From assembly GCA_030630935.1 (NCBI GenBank), contig DAOVMD010000243.1, forward strand, positions 1 to 5,308: DNA of 5,308 nucleotides, written 5' to 3'. This document shows, piece by piece, positions 95-5,208 of this stretch. The notes below the pieces were generated by a model. The model was not told where the DNA came from. It made no database searches and worked only from the letters and a program-made list of their open reading frames with translations. This DNA comes from Candidatus Mcinerneyibacteriota bacterium. GTDB lineage: Bacteria > AUK180 > JAQVHJ01. Every line of letters begins with the position of its first letter. Positions within the stretch are counted from its first letter, which is position 1. Position numbers and translations under genes: made by a program.

Positions 95-3000
95 TTGATA
101 CCTTGTTTTTGCAGGAAGGTCAATTTTCAATATGAAATTAAAGAATATAAAATATCTCAAGAAGAAAAGAAAGAATTTAGAAAATTATGCTATATAATAG
201 GTTCCCGAAAAGATTTTGAAAAAGAGTTACAGGTTTTTGAAGAAAAATATCAAAACAGTCCAAATATTGAGAAGTTATATTCTAAAATAATTTTTACCTA
301 TTCTTATACTAACAATCTGGATAGGGAGGTAAAAAAAATATATGATCGGAAATTTTTTAAATATTACGATTCATATAAAGAGAAATTCAAATATGGGAAA
401 AGTTGGAATAGTGTAATAAATTATTATATGAAAAAAACGAATAAAAATATATATTTATATCCTCCAGATTTTAAATATACATCATATACTCCCCAACAGA
501 ATATCAATTTGCATATTCATGGTCGAAATCTTAAAACGGTAAATATTGAAGTATATAAAGTTGATTTTCATGACTATTATTTAGTTTCAGCTGGTAGAAG
601 AGATATCTTAAAGAATATTTTCAAAAGAGAGCCTTTGGTAAGTAAAAACGTAGAATGGTTAAAAAAATACTCTTATTCAAGGAAAAATATTGATATTGAA
701 AAGTTAGAAAAGGGATATTATATATTTAAAGCATCAGCTGATGAGTTTGAGGTTTTTAATACTTTAATGATTTCAGAATTAAGTTATGTATTAAAACAAG
801 ATAATAGGAAGATACTATTGTATGTCTTTGATAAGAATTCCGGGATACCGAAACAGGGAGTAAATGTATTTTTTCATAACAGTAAGAAAATATATGCAAA
901 AGGTAAAACAGACCAAGACGGCATTGCAATTTTAAAAAAGAAAAATGATATTGCTAAATATCATTTTTATATTCAAGATAAGGAAGAAATTATCTATTCA
1001 GCGTTTCCAAAATATCCTATTAATAAAAATCCAAAACCAAGATGCTATTTTTATTCAGACAGACCTGTATACAGACCAGAGCAAAAGTCCTTCTTTAAAA
1101 TTATCATTCGTGATCAAATTAGCAATTTAAATTATTCAATTCCCAGTTTAGATAAGTATAAAGTTATAATTAAAGATTCGAAAGGAAATAAAATTTATGA
1201 AGAGGAACTTGAGATAAATGAATACGGTACAGTATTTGATTCTGTAACTTTGGGTTCAAATCCGGCATTAGGATGGTACAGTTATTCAATTAAAAATAAA
1301 GACAATAGAATAATCTCAAGCGGCGCGGCATTTAGAGTTGAGGAATATAAGAAACCGGAATTTAAAATGGAAATTAAACCTGAGAAATCAGCCTACTTAA
1401 ATAATGAAGAGGTTGTTGTTGATGTAAATGTGAAATATTATTTCGGTAAATCTGTCAAAGATTCAAAAGTGGATTATGAAATTGAATATACTCAAATTTA
1501 TAAATATATGAAACAACAAAATGAATATTCCTGGTTTTATGGTGATTATATCGAATCAAGACGTTATGGTTATAGACATTATTATCCACCAATACAATTA
1601 AAATCCGGTGAAACTAAAACGGATAATTATGGTAATTGTAAAATTATTTTTAAACCAAAGAATTTAAAATATACTGCAGCATACACTATTAAAGTTTTAG
1701 TTACTGATAAATCAAGAAGGCAAGTAACAGGTTCTTCAAGAGTGAAAATTGCTAATTCGGAATTCAGGATTCAAATTAAAACGGATAAATATATTTATAA
1801 ACCAGGTGATATTGCTATAATAAACTATAAAGGAAAAGATATAAATGGAGAATTATATCCATTCAAAGGACAACTCAGTATAAAGAGAATTTCCTGGACA
1901 AATAACAAATCTAAAGAAAAAGTTATATTGAATAAGGATATATCAACGGATGAAAAAGGATTAGGTTTTTTTAATTTTAAAATAACAGAAAATGGTTATT
2001 ATGAATATAAAATTATTTCAAAGGACTCTTTAGGAAATCGAATCATTACCAGTAGATCATTTAGGGTTAGGGATAAAAATTATTCTGATAATTATATTTC
2101 TCTTGAATTAGAAGCGACATTAGATAAGGATTTATACTATGCTGGAGATACTGCTACACTAATTATTGATTCACCGTTTAAAAAAACCTCAACTTTAGTT
2201 ACACTTGAACAGGAAGAGATATTGGCATATAAGGTTATAAATATTAAGCAGAATTCTGAATTAATGAATTTCAATATAGATAATAAATATGCTCCTGGAG
2301 TATTCCTTGATCTTTCTATGATAAAAAATGACAGAATTTTTACAGCTAATAAAATAATATTAGTTCCACCTAAAGAGAAGATGCTGAATATAAAAATTCT
2401 TTCAGCAAAAACAACATATAAACCAGGAGAAGAGATAGAGTTTAAAATTGAAATTAAAGATAATAATAACAACCCGGTAGAATGTGAATTATCACTTGGA
2501 ATTACTGATGAGTCATTATATTATATTCAAGATGAATTTGTGTATGATATCAGGAAATATTTTTTAAGAAACTTTATTCATATGGTCGAGACTCGGTCAG
2601 GAAAAACTTATTACCACCGTTCTGTAAGTCAAATGCCTGTTAAATCATTTTTCGGTGTTGTTGAAACCTTACCCGGTGTTATTAGAAGGGGGGGGCAACT
2701 TTATATTCGAGGTGGTCGTGGTGATCAGATTAATTATATGGTTGATGGAGTAACAATAACAGATCCGGTGACCGGGACATTTGGTGCAACGATAGAATCG
2801 ATTAAAGTAACTTCATCAGGAATGAATAATGAATATTCACCCCAAATTCAAAAGAAAATAATTTATGTTAAACCTGAGATTAGGGAATATTTTCCTGATA
2901 CCGGGTATTGGAAACCCGATCTGAAAACAGATAAAAACGGTATTGCAATTATAAAAATTAAATTGCCTGATACTTTAACTACCTGGCGGGGTACAGTTCG

Positions 3001-4936
3001 CGGAATTACAAAAGATACGAAGGTAGGTATTCAAACATATAATGTAAAGACATTTAAAAATATTTTAGCAAGACTTGAGCTGCCCCGATTTATTACGTTG
3101 GGAGATAAATTTTTAGTTTCTGGGATAATTCATAATTATTTAACAGAATCCAAAAATGTTAAATCAGAATTGGTATCAGAAGGAGTTGAACTTAAGAGTA
3201 ATCCTATTCAGAATCGAAAAATCTCTCCAGGTAAAAATCATAGGTTTGATTGGTTAGTCTCAGCAAAAAATGTTGGCAGTGCTGAATTTATTCTTAATGG
3301 TCTTACTGATGTTGAATCTGATGCAATGAAAATGGATATACCAATAATTCCATTTGGTCTTCAAAAAAGAGAAGTATTAACAGGAGTATTAACAAATAAT
3401 CATGTAACTGAGAAGATAAAAATCCCTGAAACTGCGATTCCTGGAACACTTAAAATAACCATGACTTTTAATAATGGATCTGTTGGTAAGCAGATGTTTG
3501 ATTCTCTGGGTTATTTAATAGGATTTCCTTATGGTTGTGTTGAACAGACAATGAGTAGGTTCCTTCCTAATGTAATGGTTGCTCAAACAATCCAAAGACT
3601 TGGACTTGAGAAACCAGCGATTCAGGAAAAGCTGCCTAAAATGGTTGAAATGGGTCTAAATAAATTGCATAAATTTCAGAAGGCTGATGGTGGTTGGGGT
3701 TGGTGGAAAGATTCATCATCTCCTTATATGACAGCGTATGTTATGTATGGTCTGACTTATGCTATAGAAGCAGATTATCAAGTAGATATAAAGATGTATA
3801 AAAATGGAATTACAACACTGAAAAGATTATTTAGTAAAGAAAAAACCGGTGATCAAAAAGCATATATGGCTTTTGTAATAAGCCACTTTGAAAAACCGGA
3901 TAAGAATGGAATTCTTAAATTATATAATAAGAGCAATGAATTATCTATCTATGGGAAATCTCTTCTGGCAATGGCACTTTTTAAGGTTGATGAACGGGAG
4001 AAGGGAACAGAACTTGTTAAGGAAATAAAACGAAAAGCTAAATGTTCAAAACAATCATGTCATTTTGAAAGTGAGAAAATTAAATATTCCTGGCGTAGAA
4101 ATGATGTTGAAGTAACAACTTATGTGTTCAGAGCACTTGTAATGAATGATCCTACTGATGAACTTATTCCTAAAATTCTTAATTGGTTACAATTAAAAAA
4201 GACAGGTAATTACTGGGTATCCACTAAAGATACTGCAGCGATTATCTTTGGGTATTCTGAGTATTTAGCAAAGGTTCTTGAAAATTCTGATGATTTAAAA
4301 TTTGAGGTTTCTGTAAATGATACGATAAAATTATCTGAAACATTTGATTTTAAAAATCTTGAAAAATGTAAAAGTAAATTAATTTTAAGTTCAAATGAAA
4401 TAAAGGGAAATGTACAGGATATTAAAATAAGAAAAAATGGGGATGCAAAGTTATATTATACAATAATTTTGGAATATTTTAGTGATGATAATCCTATAAA
4501 TAGATTTTCGAGCTGCATTAATGTGAAAAGATCTTATGTATTAAAAAATTCTGATAAGAATCCGCAAAGTATTGGAAGAGAAATAAACCCATACAAGGAT
4601 AAGATATACTCAGGTGATGTAATTGAAGTTGAGATAGAACTTAAATCAAAAGATCCATTACAATATTTAATGATAGAAGATTATATCCCTGCGGGATGTG
4701 AGATAGTCAACAGAACATCAGGTCGAAGTAAATACTACTGGATTGCTCATCAGGAGTTCAGGGATGAGAAGGCAGTATTTTTCATTACGAAATACCAGGG
4801 GAAGAAGACGATAAAGTACAAACTCCGGGCAGAGATCCCCGGGACTTATAACGTTCTCCCAACAATCGTTACATCAATGTATTTTCCCGAAGTGTATGCA
4901 AATAGCAGTTCGTATAAACTCACCATAGTTGAATAA
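95..4936 (+). CDS. Alpha-2-macroglobulin family thioester protein with an embedded TonB-plug-like domain
   Basis: Bacterial A2Ms are periplasmic or surface protease traps: an attacker cuts the bait region and is captured by a reactive thioester. Seen here: a Lys/Tyr-rich helical region (residues 1-118); MG1-like strands (about 119-215); a second beta domain (about 225-310); the MG2 signature YFYSDRPVYRP (318-328); further MG domains starting near 421, 554, 669 and 763 (the last contains GITDESL, 802-808); a plug-like insert (about 831-921); the A2M block EIREYFPDTGYW (928-939) followed by LPDTLTTWRGTVRG; the thioester motif GCVEQ (1147-1151); the helical thioester domain with GGWGWWK (1199-1205) and TKDT (1377-1380); and a C-terminal beta domain (about 1494-1613) ending as family members usually do. 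Length is normal for the family. The start is uncertain: TTG at 95 is the first possible start after an in-frame TAA at 71-73, has no ribosome binding site, and gives no signal peptide or lipobox. The next in-frame ATG (428) would fall at the edge of MG1. No pbpC partner is visible. The family call is secure; the 5' end is not. Confidence 0.96.
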   Translation: MIPCFCRKVNFQYEIKEYKISQEEKKEFRKLCYIIGSRKDFEKELQVFEEKYQNSPNIEKLYSKIIFTYSYTNNLDREVKKIYDRKFFKYYDSYKEKFKYGKSWNSVINYYMKKTNKNIYLYPPDFKYTSYTPQQNINLHIHGRNLKTVNIEVYKVDFHDYYLVSAGRRDILKNIFKREPLVSKNVEWLKKYSYSRKNIDIEKLEKGYYIFKASADEFEVFNTLMISELSYVLKQDNRKILLYVFDKNSGIPKQGVNVFFHNSKKIYAKGKTDQDGIAILKKKNDIAKYHFYIQDKEEIIYSAFPKYPINKNPKPRCYFYSDRPVYRPEQKSFFKIIIRDQISNLNYSIPSLDKYKVIIKDSKGNKIYEEELEINEYGTVFDSVTLGSNPALGWYSYSIKNKDNRIISSGAAFRVEEYKKPEFKMEIKPEKSAYLNNEEVVVDVNVKYYFGKSVKDSKVDYEIEYTQIYKYMKQQNEYSWFYGDYIESRRYGYRHYYPPIQLKSGETKTDNYGNCKIIFKPKNLKYTAAYTIKVLVTDKSRRQVTGSSRVKIANSEFRIQIKTDKYIYKPGDIAIINYKGKDINGELYPFKGQLSIKRISWTNNKSKEKVILNKDISTDEKGLGFFNFKITENGYYEYKIISKDSLGNRIITSRSFRVRDKNYSDNYISLELEATLDKDLYYAGDTATLIIDSPFKKTSTLVTLEQEEILAYKVINIKQNSELMNFNIDNKYAPGVFLDLSMIKNDRIFTANKIILVPPKEKMLNIKILSAKTTYKPGEEIEFKIEIKDNNNNPVECELSLGITDESLYYIQDEFVYDIRKYFLRNFIHMVETRSGKTYYHRSVSQMPVKSFFGVVETLPGVIRRGGQLYIRGGRGDQINYMVDGVTITDPVTGTFGATIESIKVTSSGMNNEYSPQIQKKIIYVKPEIREYFPDTGYWKPDLKTDKNGIAIIKIKLPDTLTTWRGTVRGITKDTKVGIQTYNVKTFKNILARLELPRFITLGDKFLVSGIIHNYLTESKNVKSELVSEGVELKSNPIQNRKISPGKNHRFDWLVSAKNVGSAEFILNGLTDVESDAMKMDIPIIPFGLQKREVLTGVLTNNHVTEKIKIPETAIPGTLKITMTFNNGSVGKQMFDSLGYLIGFPYGCVEQTMSRFLPNVMVAQTIQRLGLEKPAIQEKLPKMVEMGLNKLHKFQKADGGWGWWKDSSSPYMTAYVMYGLTYAIEADYQVDIKMYKNGITTLKRLFSKEKTGDQKAYMAFVISHFEKPDKNGILKLYNKSNELSIYGKSLLAMALFKVDEREKGTELVKEIKRKAKCSKQSCHFESEKIKYSWRRNDVEVTTYVFRALVMNDPTDELIPKILNWLQLKKTGNYWVSTKDTAAIIFGYSEYLAKVLENSDDLKFEVSVNDTIKLSETFDFKNLEKCKSKLILSSNEIKGNVQDIKIRKNGDAKLYYTIILEYFSDDNPINRFSSCINVKRSYVLKNSDKNPQSIGREINPYKDKIYSGDVIEVEIELKSKDPLQYLMIEDYIPAGCEIVNRTSGRSKYYWIAHQEFRDEKAVFFITKYQGKKTIKYKLRAEIPGTYNVLPTIVTSMYFPEVYANSSSYKLTIVE
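2582..2870 (+). other. TonB-dependent receptor plug-like domain within the A2M, at the bait-region position
   Basis: Residues about 831-921. The order of motifs is that of a TonB receptor plug: VSQMPVKSFFGVVETLPGV (844-862), GGQLYIRGGRGDQ (866-878), NYMVDGVTITDPVTG (880-894), IESIKVTSSGMNNEYSPQ (900-917). These match the plug pattern of an SF-x-x-V-x-x-x-PGV helix, an IRGGR strand, Y-x-VDGV-x-x-x-DP, and IE-x-I-x-V ending near EY. In receptors the plug fills the outer-membrane barrel and undergoes TonB-dependent rearrangement. Here there is no barrel and no TonB box. The domain follows the last MG domain before the conserved block and ends just before EIREYFPDTGYW, where A2Ms carry the protease-cleaved bait. 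GC over 2581-2820 is about 42% by hand count, against 20-23% in the 60 bp on each side. The motif identity is clear; a role as bait, docking module or recognition domain is inference. Confidence 0.85.
2688..2695 (+). repeat. Eight-G homopolymer in the coding sequence
   Basis: Eight consecutive G residues span the codons for R865, G866 and G867, just before the conserved LYIRGGR strand of the plug-like domain. A G8 run is striking in a gene that is mostly 20-30% GC. The frame is intact as read. A one-base slip would end translation before the thioester domain. Such runs serve as phase-variation switches in several bacteria, and are also common sites of sequencing error. Which applies here cannot be decided from one sequence. 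Confidence 0.9.
3533..3547 (+). other. Thioester motif GCVEQ of the A2M
   Basis: Residues 1147-1151, in the context FPYGCVEQTMSRFLPN. In thioester-containing A2M and complement proteins the Cys (C1148) and Gln (Q1151) side chains form the internal thioester that bonds covalently to the target after activation. Both residues and the intervening Glu are present, so this copy should be of the trapping type rather than the thioester-lacking bacterial type (such as YfaS). The motif sits at the start of the helical thioester domain, in its usual place. Confidence 0.95.
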
Positions 4937-4964
4937 TTCAACTGAAAGTTGAATTATTCAACTA
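4926..4964. repeat. 18-bp perfect inverted repeat over the A2M stop codon
   Basis: The left arm 4926-4943 (TAGTTGAATAATTCAACT) is the exact reverse complement of the right arm 4947-4964, with a GAA loop at 4944-4946. The last codons and the TAA stop (4934-4936) lie inside the left arm. Each arm is itself palindromic except at its central base, so alternative foldings into two short hairpins are possible. No T-run follows, so it is not a canonical intrinsic terminator. It could protect the mRNA 3' end or slow polymerase, or be the first member of the downstream GTTGAA-rich repeats. The structure is certain; the function is unknown. Confidence 0.9.
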
Positions 4965-4973
4965 GGAGTTCAA

Positions 4974-5208
4974 GGCATGCTTTGCATGCGTTCAAGTGTT
5001 CAATAGTTCAAATGTTAATAAACCGTTCAAGAGTTATTTTAGGGACATGCTTCGCATGTCTATGGTTGAATGGTTGAAGAGTTAATAAACCGTTCAAGAG
5101 TTATTTTAGGGACATGCTTTGCATGTCCATGGTTGAATAGTTGAAGTGTTAATAAAACGTTAGAGAGTTATTTTAAAGACGGCTTCGCACGTCTATGGTT
5201 GAATGGTT
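4974..5208. repeat. Array of about 67-bp tandem units, each with a short GC-rich hairpin
   Basis: Four units begin near 4974, 5042, 5109 and 5176. The stretch 5014-5052 recurs exactly at 5081-5119 (39 bp, 67 bp apart), and the two middle units differ at about 8 of 67 positions. Each unit has a 6-8 bp hairpin with a TTT or TTC loop: 4975-4989 (GCATGC/GCATGC), 5044-5060 (GACATGC/GCATGTC), 5110-5128 (GGACATGC/GCATGTCC) and 5178-5193 (GACGGC/GCACGTC, one base bulged). The rest of each unit is AT-rich with GTTGAA or GTTCAA words. The first unit diverges between its hairpin and 5013; the last is intact only to about 5208. The array resembles REP-like extragenic palindromes. No open frame spans it, and the family is not one I recognise. 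Confidence 0.85.
4990..5021 (+). repeat. 8-bp period short repeat (GTTCAANN)
   Basis: Four consecutive octamers, GTTCAAGT, GTTCAATA, GTTCAAAT and GTTAATAA, lie in exact 8-bp register inside the first array unit. The corresponding position of the second unit (5064-5087) has the same 8-bp period but the GGTTGAAT form: GGTTGAAT, GGTTGAAG, AGTTAATA. GTTCAA and TTGAAC are reverse complements, so the two units carry differently oriented versions of a similar word. This looks like slippage-generated sequence or a small repeated binding site; nothing in the window decides which. Confidence 0.75.

Follow-up and report, generated by a model that had tools for sequence, protein, structure and literature searches.

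The window analysed here, a whole contig of 5,308 nucleotides, encodes an alpha-2-macroglobulin (A2M) in which the protease bait consists mostly of a piece of the plug domain of a TonB-dependent receptor (TBDR), closely related to a receptor encoded in the same genome. Comparable receptor pieces are present at the same site in A2Ms of the Bacteroidia, and together these proteins point to an unexpected tie between the A2M bait and the cell's own receptors. We found no account of an A2M paired with a plug in the open-access literature searched.

One gene fills the window and is the only gene on the contig; the source genome is fragmented, with 471 contigs and a completeness of about 80%. The open reading frame (95..4936, forward strand, as are the domains and segments of the gene given below) encodes 1613 amino acids from a TTG start, with an in-frame TAA at 71–73, 21 bases ahead of it. 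Pfam searches identify in turn an MG2 domain (residues 317–415, 1043..1339; E 5.2e-22), A2M_BRD (residues 672–810, 2108..2524; E 1.4e-14), A2M/MG7 (residues 938–1024, 2906..3166; E 2e-18), a thioester-containing domain (TED) matching TED_complement (residues 1128–1225, 3476..3769; E 7.9e-19) and a C-terminal MG domain, bMG10 (residues 1476–1599, 4520..4891; E 3.8e-24). This is the domain order of the Type I bacterial A2Ms, and the motif GCVEQ (residues 1147–1151, 3533..3547) provides the CxEQ thioester of that type, as the bait, lying between BRD and alpha'NT/MG7, occupies the place expected of it. The best sequence matches in the PDB are CD109 (4.9e-29) and human A2M (1.1e-27), with complement proteins also matched, while PADLOC and PHROGs searches gave no informative match. 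On its domains and its thioester we class the protein as a bacterial A2M, thioester-bearing and similar to Type I, with putative export.

Neither a signal peptide nor a lipobox was found at the N-terminus, where the gene start adjoins the contig edge, and this may reflect an effect of that edge, truncation of the gene or a real loss; in two relatives, L041 and L051, the N-terminus resembles that of a lipoprotein. The absent signal peptide at the 5′ end, the shortness of the contig, the fragmentation of the genome and a run of eight G residues within the insert are what would be expected if the assembly had joined two genes or the gene were a decaying A2M pseudogene, but we think this scarcely credible. 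The frame is open through all 1613 codons; the plug and the one receptor that resembles it disagree at 24% of bases, and the plug is in frame on both sides; and independent cases occur elsewhere. The source genome also has other A2M genes (L040, L045 and L046), and comparison with the paralogue L040 (contig C199, 49% identical) gives pN 0.31 vs pS 0.73, so that the window A2M is under constraint, a further point against decay.

The plug stands at the position of the human A2M bait. The alpha'NT block EIREYFPDTGYW (2876..2911) aligns from residue 928 onward (EIREYF) with human A2M from residue 730, placing R930 and F933 on human R732 and F735, and A2M_BRD ends at residue 810. In a structural model of residues 655–1040 the flanking domains are confidently predicted and match Salmonella, human and oocyte A2M structures. 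Because of this alignment and these matches the plug can be assigned to the bait, between A2M_BRD and MG7/alpha'NT, and the central proposal of the first-pass annotation, that a plug has taken the place of the bait, is upheld. In A2M the alpha'NT segment threads a central channel and retracts upon bait cleavage, and triggering needs a break in the continuity of the chain (PMC9352918).

The insert has three parts. Residues 811–844 (2525..2626) are the N-terminal remainder of the A2M's own bait linker and align with the paralogue L040 and with L041. The 52-residue plug core, MPVKSFFGVVETLPGVIRRGGQLYIRGGRGDQINYMVDGVTITDPVTGTFGA (residues 845–896, 2627..2782), is 85% identical to a TBDR, L039, encoded on contig C230 of the same genome. 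The third part, residues 897–927 (2783..2875), is a diverged plug tail that is predicted to be disordered; identity to L039 is 33% over the 30 residues following the core, where receptors share 57–90% among themselves. A 233-residue query from the window matches L039 with E 3.9e-28 (57% over 94 residues), the corresponding DNA matches with E 1.8e-24 and 76% identity, and TBDRs of the same class give 41–55%. Over residues 846–905 the Pfam Plug family falls slightly short of its gathering threshold of 23.9 bits: E is 0.0056 with the full-length protein, and a 121-residue slice scores 23.0 bits with E 1.2e-4. We accept this match as real because of the closer homology to TBDRs. The core thus qualifies by homology as a TonB-dependent receptor plug, with a diverged tail, and the window A2M carries a genuine receptor plug segment, in which all of the plug motifs that had been listed beforehand are present. 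Its proposed extent of 2582–2870 needs to be narrowed: the strong match covers about 2627–2782, the tail at 2783–2875 is only 33% identical and residues 811–844 upstream resemble A2M linker. The profile searches suggested at that stage recovered the MG2, A2M and thioester families, with Plug falling just below its threshold. The signature of the last plug strand, SGIINVVTKE, is absent from the window's plug tail, alignment to L039 reveals neither a TonB box nor a CarboxypepD_reg domain in the window, and no family of the 22-strand beta-barrel was matched in the window protein by Pfam. The run of eight G residues lies at 2688–2695 in the plug coding sequence and is unique in the approximately 50 kb examined of this AT-rich genome; slippage, and with it phase variation, may occur at this run, which is in frame as assembled.

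The predicted structure of the plug is less clear than its homology. The model of residues 655–1040 was folded from alignment A4, which wrongly places receptor tails in MG7. Within its plug core, confidence is moderate over the first 30 residues (block means 66–74) and about 50 over the rest, and residues from about 896 to 930 fall below 50. Folded alone with a receptor-plug alignment, the plug has a mean pLDDT of 57.6. The models do not support a plug that folds confidently as an independent domain. The top structural matches of the plug model are nonetheless TBDR plugs (BtuB, Cir, PirA, FecA and FhuA; best E 2.5e-3, probability 1.00), which we treat as supporting evidence only, given the low model confidence and the inclusion of receptor rows among those aligned; none of our claims draws on the mixed alignments A2, A5 and A6, whose receptor or A2M rows were misaligned. 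According to a passage in PMC11658791 that cites Usher 2001, the isolated FepA plug behaves as unfolded, and by analogy such behaviour would suit a role as bait.

A tree built from 36 plugs joins the window to L039 with support of 100/99, and the branch lengths are 0 for L039 and 1.06 for the window, which argues that the L039 lineage is the direct or near-direct donor. A receptor of the L039 type is thus the likely donor of the window plug, as judged from a genome that is about 80% complete. In L039 a CarboxypepD_reg domain and a plug accompany the barrel, and its gene is followed by exbB and tonB. The plug was acquired rather than inherited from an ancestral A2M, because the paralogue L040 and the nearest relatives (L041, L051–L053 and L055) have only a low-complexity linker at the bait; this linker is 63–73 residues long vs 101 in the window, an excess over the bait of L040 of about 32 residues. 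In a tree of A2M bodies L040 is sister to the window, and the two group with metagenome-assembled genomes labelled Spirochaetota. None of the 80 A2M loci retrieved by the motifs of this A2M family has this plug (blastp, and a plug model built from alignment A3), an initial scan of genome contigs with window peptides revealed no relative, and the exact fusion seen in the window is represented by one sequence only.

The acquisition is not recent. Between the window core and L039, pS is 0.77 and pN 0.09, and only 11 of 33 fourfold degenerate sites are identical, approximately the chance level; recent copying from L039 is excluded by this saturation of synonymous sites. Saturated synonymous sites together with a preserved core protein suggest purifying selection, and if the split between the window and L039 is the copying event, then the core protein would have been held since copying, although for the window this argument would lose force if the 20% of the genome that is missing encoded another receptor, the true donor. 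GC3 gave no signal of foreign origin (0.25 vs 0.21). Evolution is much faster in the A2M copies of the plug than in the receptors, so that relaxed constraint also fits.

The window protein is not the only A2M with a receptor piece in its bait. A joined plug and MG7 profile identified fused proteins of 1904–2058 amino acids in the Bacteroidia (L240–L243), each with a CarboxypepD_reg domain, a motif resembling a TonB box and then a plug core ahead of the R..F.D..YW block, and two further fusions are present in genomes G704 and G813. Scanning 395 genomes at a cut-off of E 1e-24 gave no match, this cut-off being too strict for the real Bacteroidia fusions, which score near 1e-18; a profile of the fusion bodies matches in at least 34 of 395 genomes of the class. 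Among 30 Bacteroidia bait segments, 26 match CarboxypepD_reg, 12 match Pfam Plug (best 5.4e-15) and 14 match the SusC/RagA receptor family, whose plug-end signature is found in eight; L307 matches positions 1–210 of the 981-position model, the N-terminus only. The suspicion in the first-pass annotation that large Bacteroidota A2Ms might share the pairing was therefore well founded, the survey of homologues that it suggested having located TBDR N-termini in a separate Bacteroidia A2M clade, and uniqueness of the plug–A2M fusion is ruled out.

In the Bacteroidia fusions the receptor segments and the A2M bodies differ in history. The bodies of six of the fusion A2Ms form one clade (SH-aLRT 100), with the window A2M outside it. 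Yet in a tree of the segment from CarboxypepD_reg to plug the five A2M copies do not form a single clade (p-AU 1.5e-12, in a tree with long branches and for a group that was named after the fusions had been seen), which rules out one ancestral Bacteroidia fusion followed by plain descent for the receptor segment. Three copies pair with a TBDR of their own genome (G894, 100/100; G624, 99/90; G659, 89/78), and those of G756 and G704 pair together, nested among receptors that come from these two genomes and from others. The A2M and receptor of the G624 pair have 75% protein identity, and 22 of their 72 fourfold sites are identical. The Bacteroidia segment may have been captured repeatedly or overwritten by gene conversion, and either would tie the bait to a resident receptor. 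Judging from the trees, the gains of the window and of the Bacteroidia are independent events in unrelated A2M lineages. Since unrelated trap proteins took up the same kind of piece independently, a plug in the bait is probably a product of selection and not an accident.

Baits of the 80 A2M loci surveyed range from about 24 to 238 residues, and many are of low complexity. A domain resembling CarboxypepD_reg, which in many receptors stands ahead of the plug, occurs in the bait of ten A2Ms of Bacteroidota and Ignavibacteria (L061, L065, L067, L069, L070, L075, L078, L079, L082 and L083), and the L075 bait also contains LRGGRTDESEIVNDG, which resembles a plug remnant. Five other Bacteroidia baits (L296, L305, L306, L309 and L310) have apparently worn-down receptor N-termini or none, which suggests repeated decay and renewal. 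Variability of this order in bait length and content, the long branches of the A2M plug copies and the degraded state of many Bacteroidia copies are compatible with a neutral or opportunistic origin, in which nearly any insert is acceptable in a bait so long as it is exposed, the abundant receptor genes are a convenient supply and the plug provides protease-sensitive sequence only. We regard this as possible but doubtful: A2M lineages that are unrelated, at least two of them, have each taken up a TBDR N-terminus, several times within one lineage and often from the same genome, and in the window the core protein has been kept while synonymous sites became saturated.

We favor, tentatively and somewhat short of an even chance, the interpretation that the plug acts as a bait that mimics the cell's own receptor, with putative roles in cleavage, thioester firing and as a decoy. 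It builds on the plug homology, the donor, the position, the trigger and thioester residues, the independent recurrence and the conservation of the core. The flexible A2M bait would have been replaced by the N-terminal two thirds of the plug of a conserved TBDR of the same genome, and lacking its barrel this plug would be only marginally stable. Proteases directed at receptor plugs, or at the linkers on either side of this one, would then cut between A2M_BRD and alpha'NT; the alpha'NT segment, with R930 and F933, would exit the channel, the trap would collapse, and the thioester at Cys1148 would bind the protease covalently. A receptor-like bait would favor proteases for which that receptor is a substrate or a route, making it an integrated decoy. 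The role of a cleaved trigger, one of three suggested at the outset, fits the bait position, the conserved R930 and F933 and the thioester. Several observations count against bait mimicry: human A2M tends to misfold when its bait is lengthened by 10–20 residues (PMC9352918), and the window bait exceeds that of its paralogue by more; signal peptide and lipobox are lacking, the exact fusion is a single one and the copies evolve fast. That bacterial A2Ms more widely have repeatedly refreshed their baits with the N-termini of their own TBDRs, the trap being sprung by any protease that attacks the outer-membrane gate or makes use of it, is a bolder proposal, with a logic comparable to that of the integrated decoys of plant immune receptors, and one we also consider doubtful.

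The plug could instead be a docking or sensing module that places the trap at a barrel, at TonB or at a receptor partner, where it would guard the gate or be pulled by TonB. The Bacteroidia A2Ms, which retain CarboxypepD_reg, a TonB-box-like motif (e.g. LNEVVVVGYG) and plug in order, lend this some weight, as does the lipoprotein-like appearance of L041 and L051, but it is unlikely for the window, whose plug is without a TonB box, CarboxypepD_reg domain and final strand, and a barrel already contains a plug of its own. Docking on TonB, a second of the roles first suggested, is unlikely for the window because it has no TonB box, though such motifs are kept in the Bacteroidia copies; the third, recognition of proteases that use TonB receptors, may apply. 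Passages in PMC6434023 and PMC11658791 describe the export of the protease PopC by the Myxococcus TBDR Oar, with exbB and exbD adjoining oar. With this published precedent, and with L039 having a CarboxypepD_reg domain and being followed by exbB and tonB, one can envisage that the window A2M traps a protease exported via the receptor, the plug copy recognizing its passenger in the periplasm and stopping it from acting internally; the passenger protease, the orthology of L039 with Oar and the binding of passenger to plug are all putative, and we think this role very unlikely. Bait mimicry thus remains our preferred interpretation.

The closest bacterial parallels are the Type I A2Ms YfhM/ECAM of E. 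coli and SaA2M of Salmonella, which like the window protein have MG domains, A2M_BRD, MG7, a TED with CxEQ and bMG10, and a bait directly before the alpha'NT block. In those proteins a linker that is mostly disordered serves as the bait (PMC4498604), whereas that of the window is mostly receptor plug. Human A2M, CD109 and complement C3/C4/C5, where the best PDB matches lie, have no receptor-derived insert, although the human bait corresponds to the insertion point in the window. C3 has its LNK/ANA insert at the point matching the human A2M bait. L039 shares the plug core with the window and differs in possessing the barrel, TonB box, CarboxypepD_reg domain and final plug strand. The Bacteroidia A2Ms (e.g. 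L240–L243, L299 and L307) have a receptor piece at the same site and a CxEQ thioester, but with distant bodies of about 1.8–2.1 thousand residues and a larger receptor piece, bearing Oar- or SusC-type plugs. Little is known of what bacterial A2Ms target in nature and how specifically, and a bait copied from a receptor of the same cell points to proteases that act at TonB-dependent receptors; it also raises the question of whether a domain, instead of a loose linker, can spring the trap.

Two minor observations concern sequences around these genes. Contigs labelled Thalassobius and Thalassovita (both Pseudomonadota) carry the A2Ms L070 and L083, which lie inside a Bacteroidota clade, and these contigs are probably misbinned. 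Downstream of the window A2M gene are three tandem 67-base repeats (100, 90 and 64%) with CATGCTTYGCATG palindromes at 4998–5198, preceded at 4930–4960 by a possible terminator, an inverted repeat of 14 bases without mismatch.
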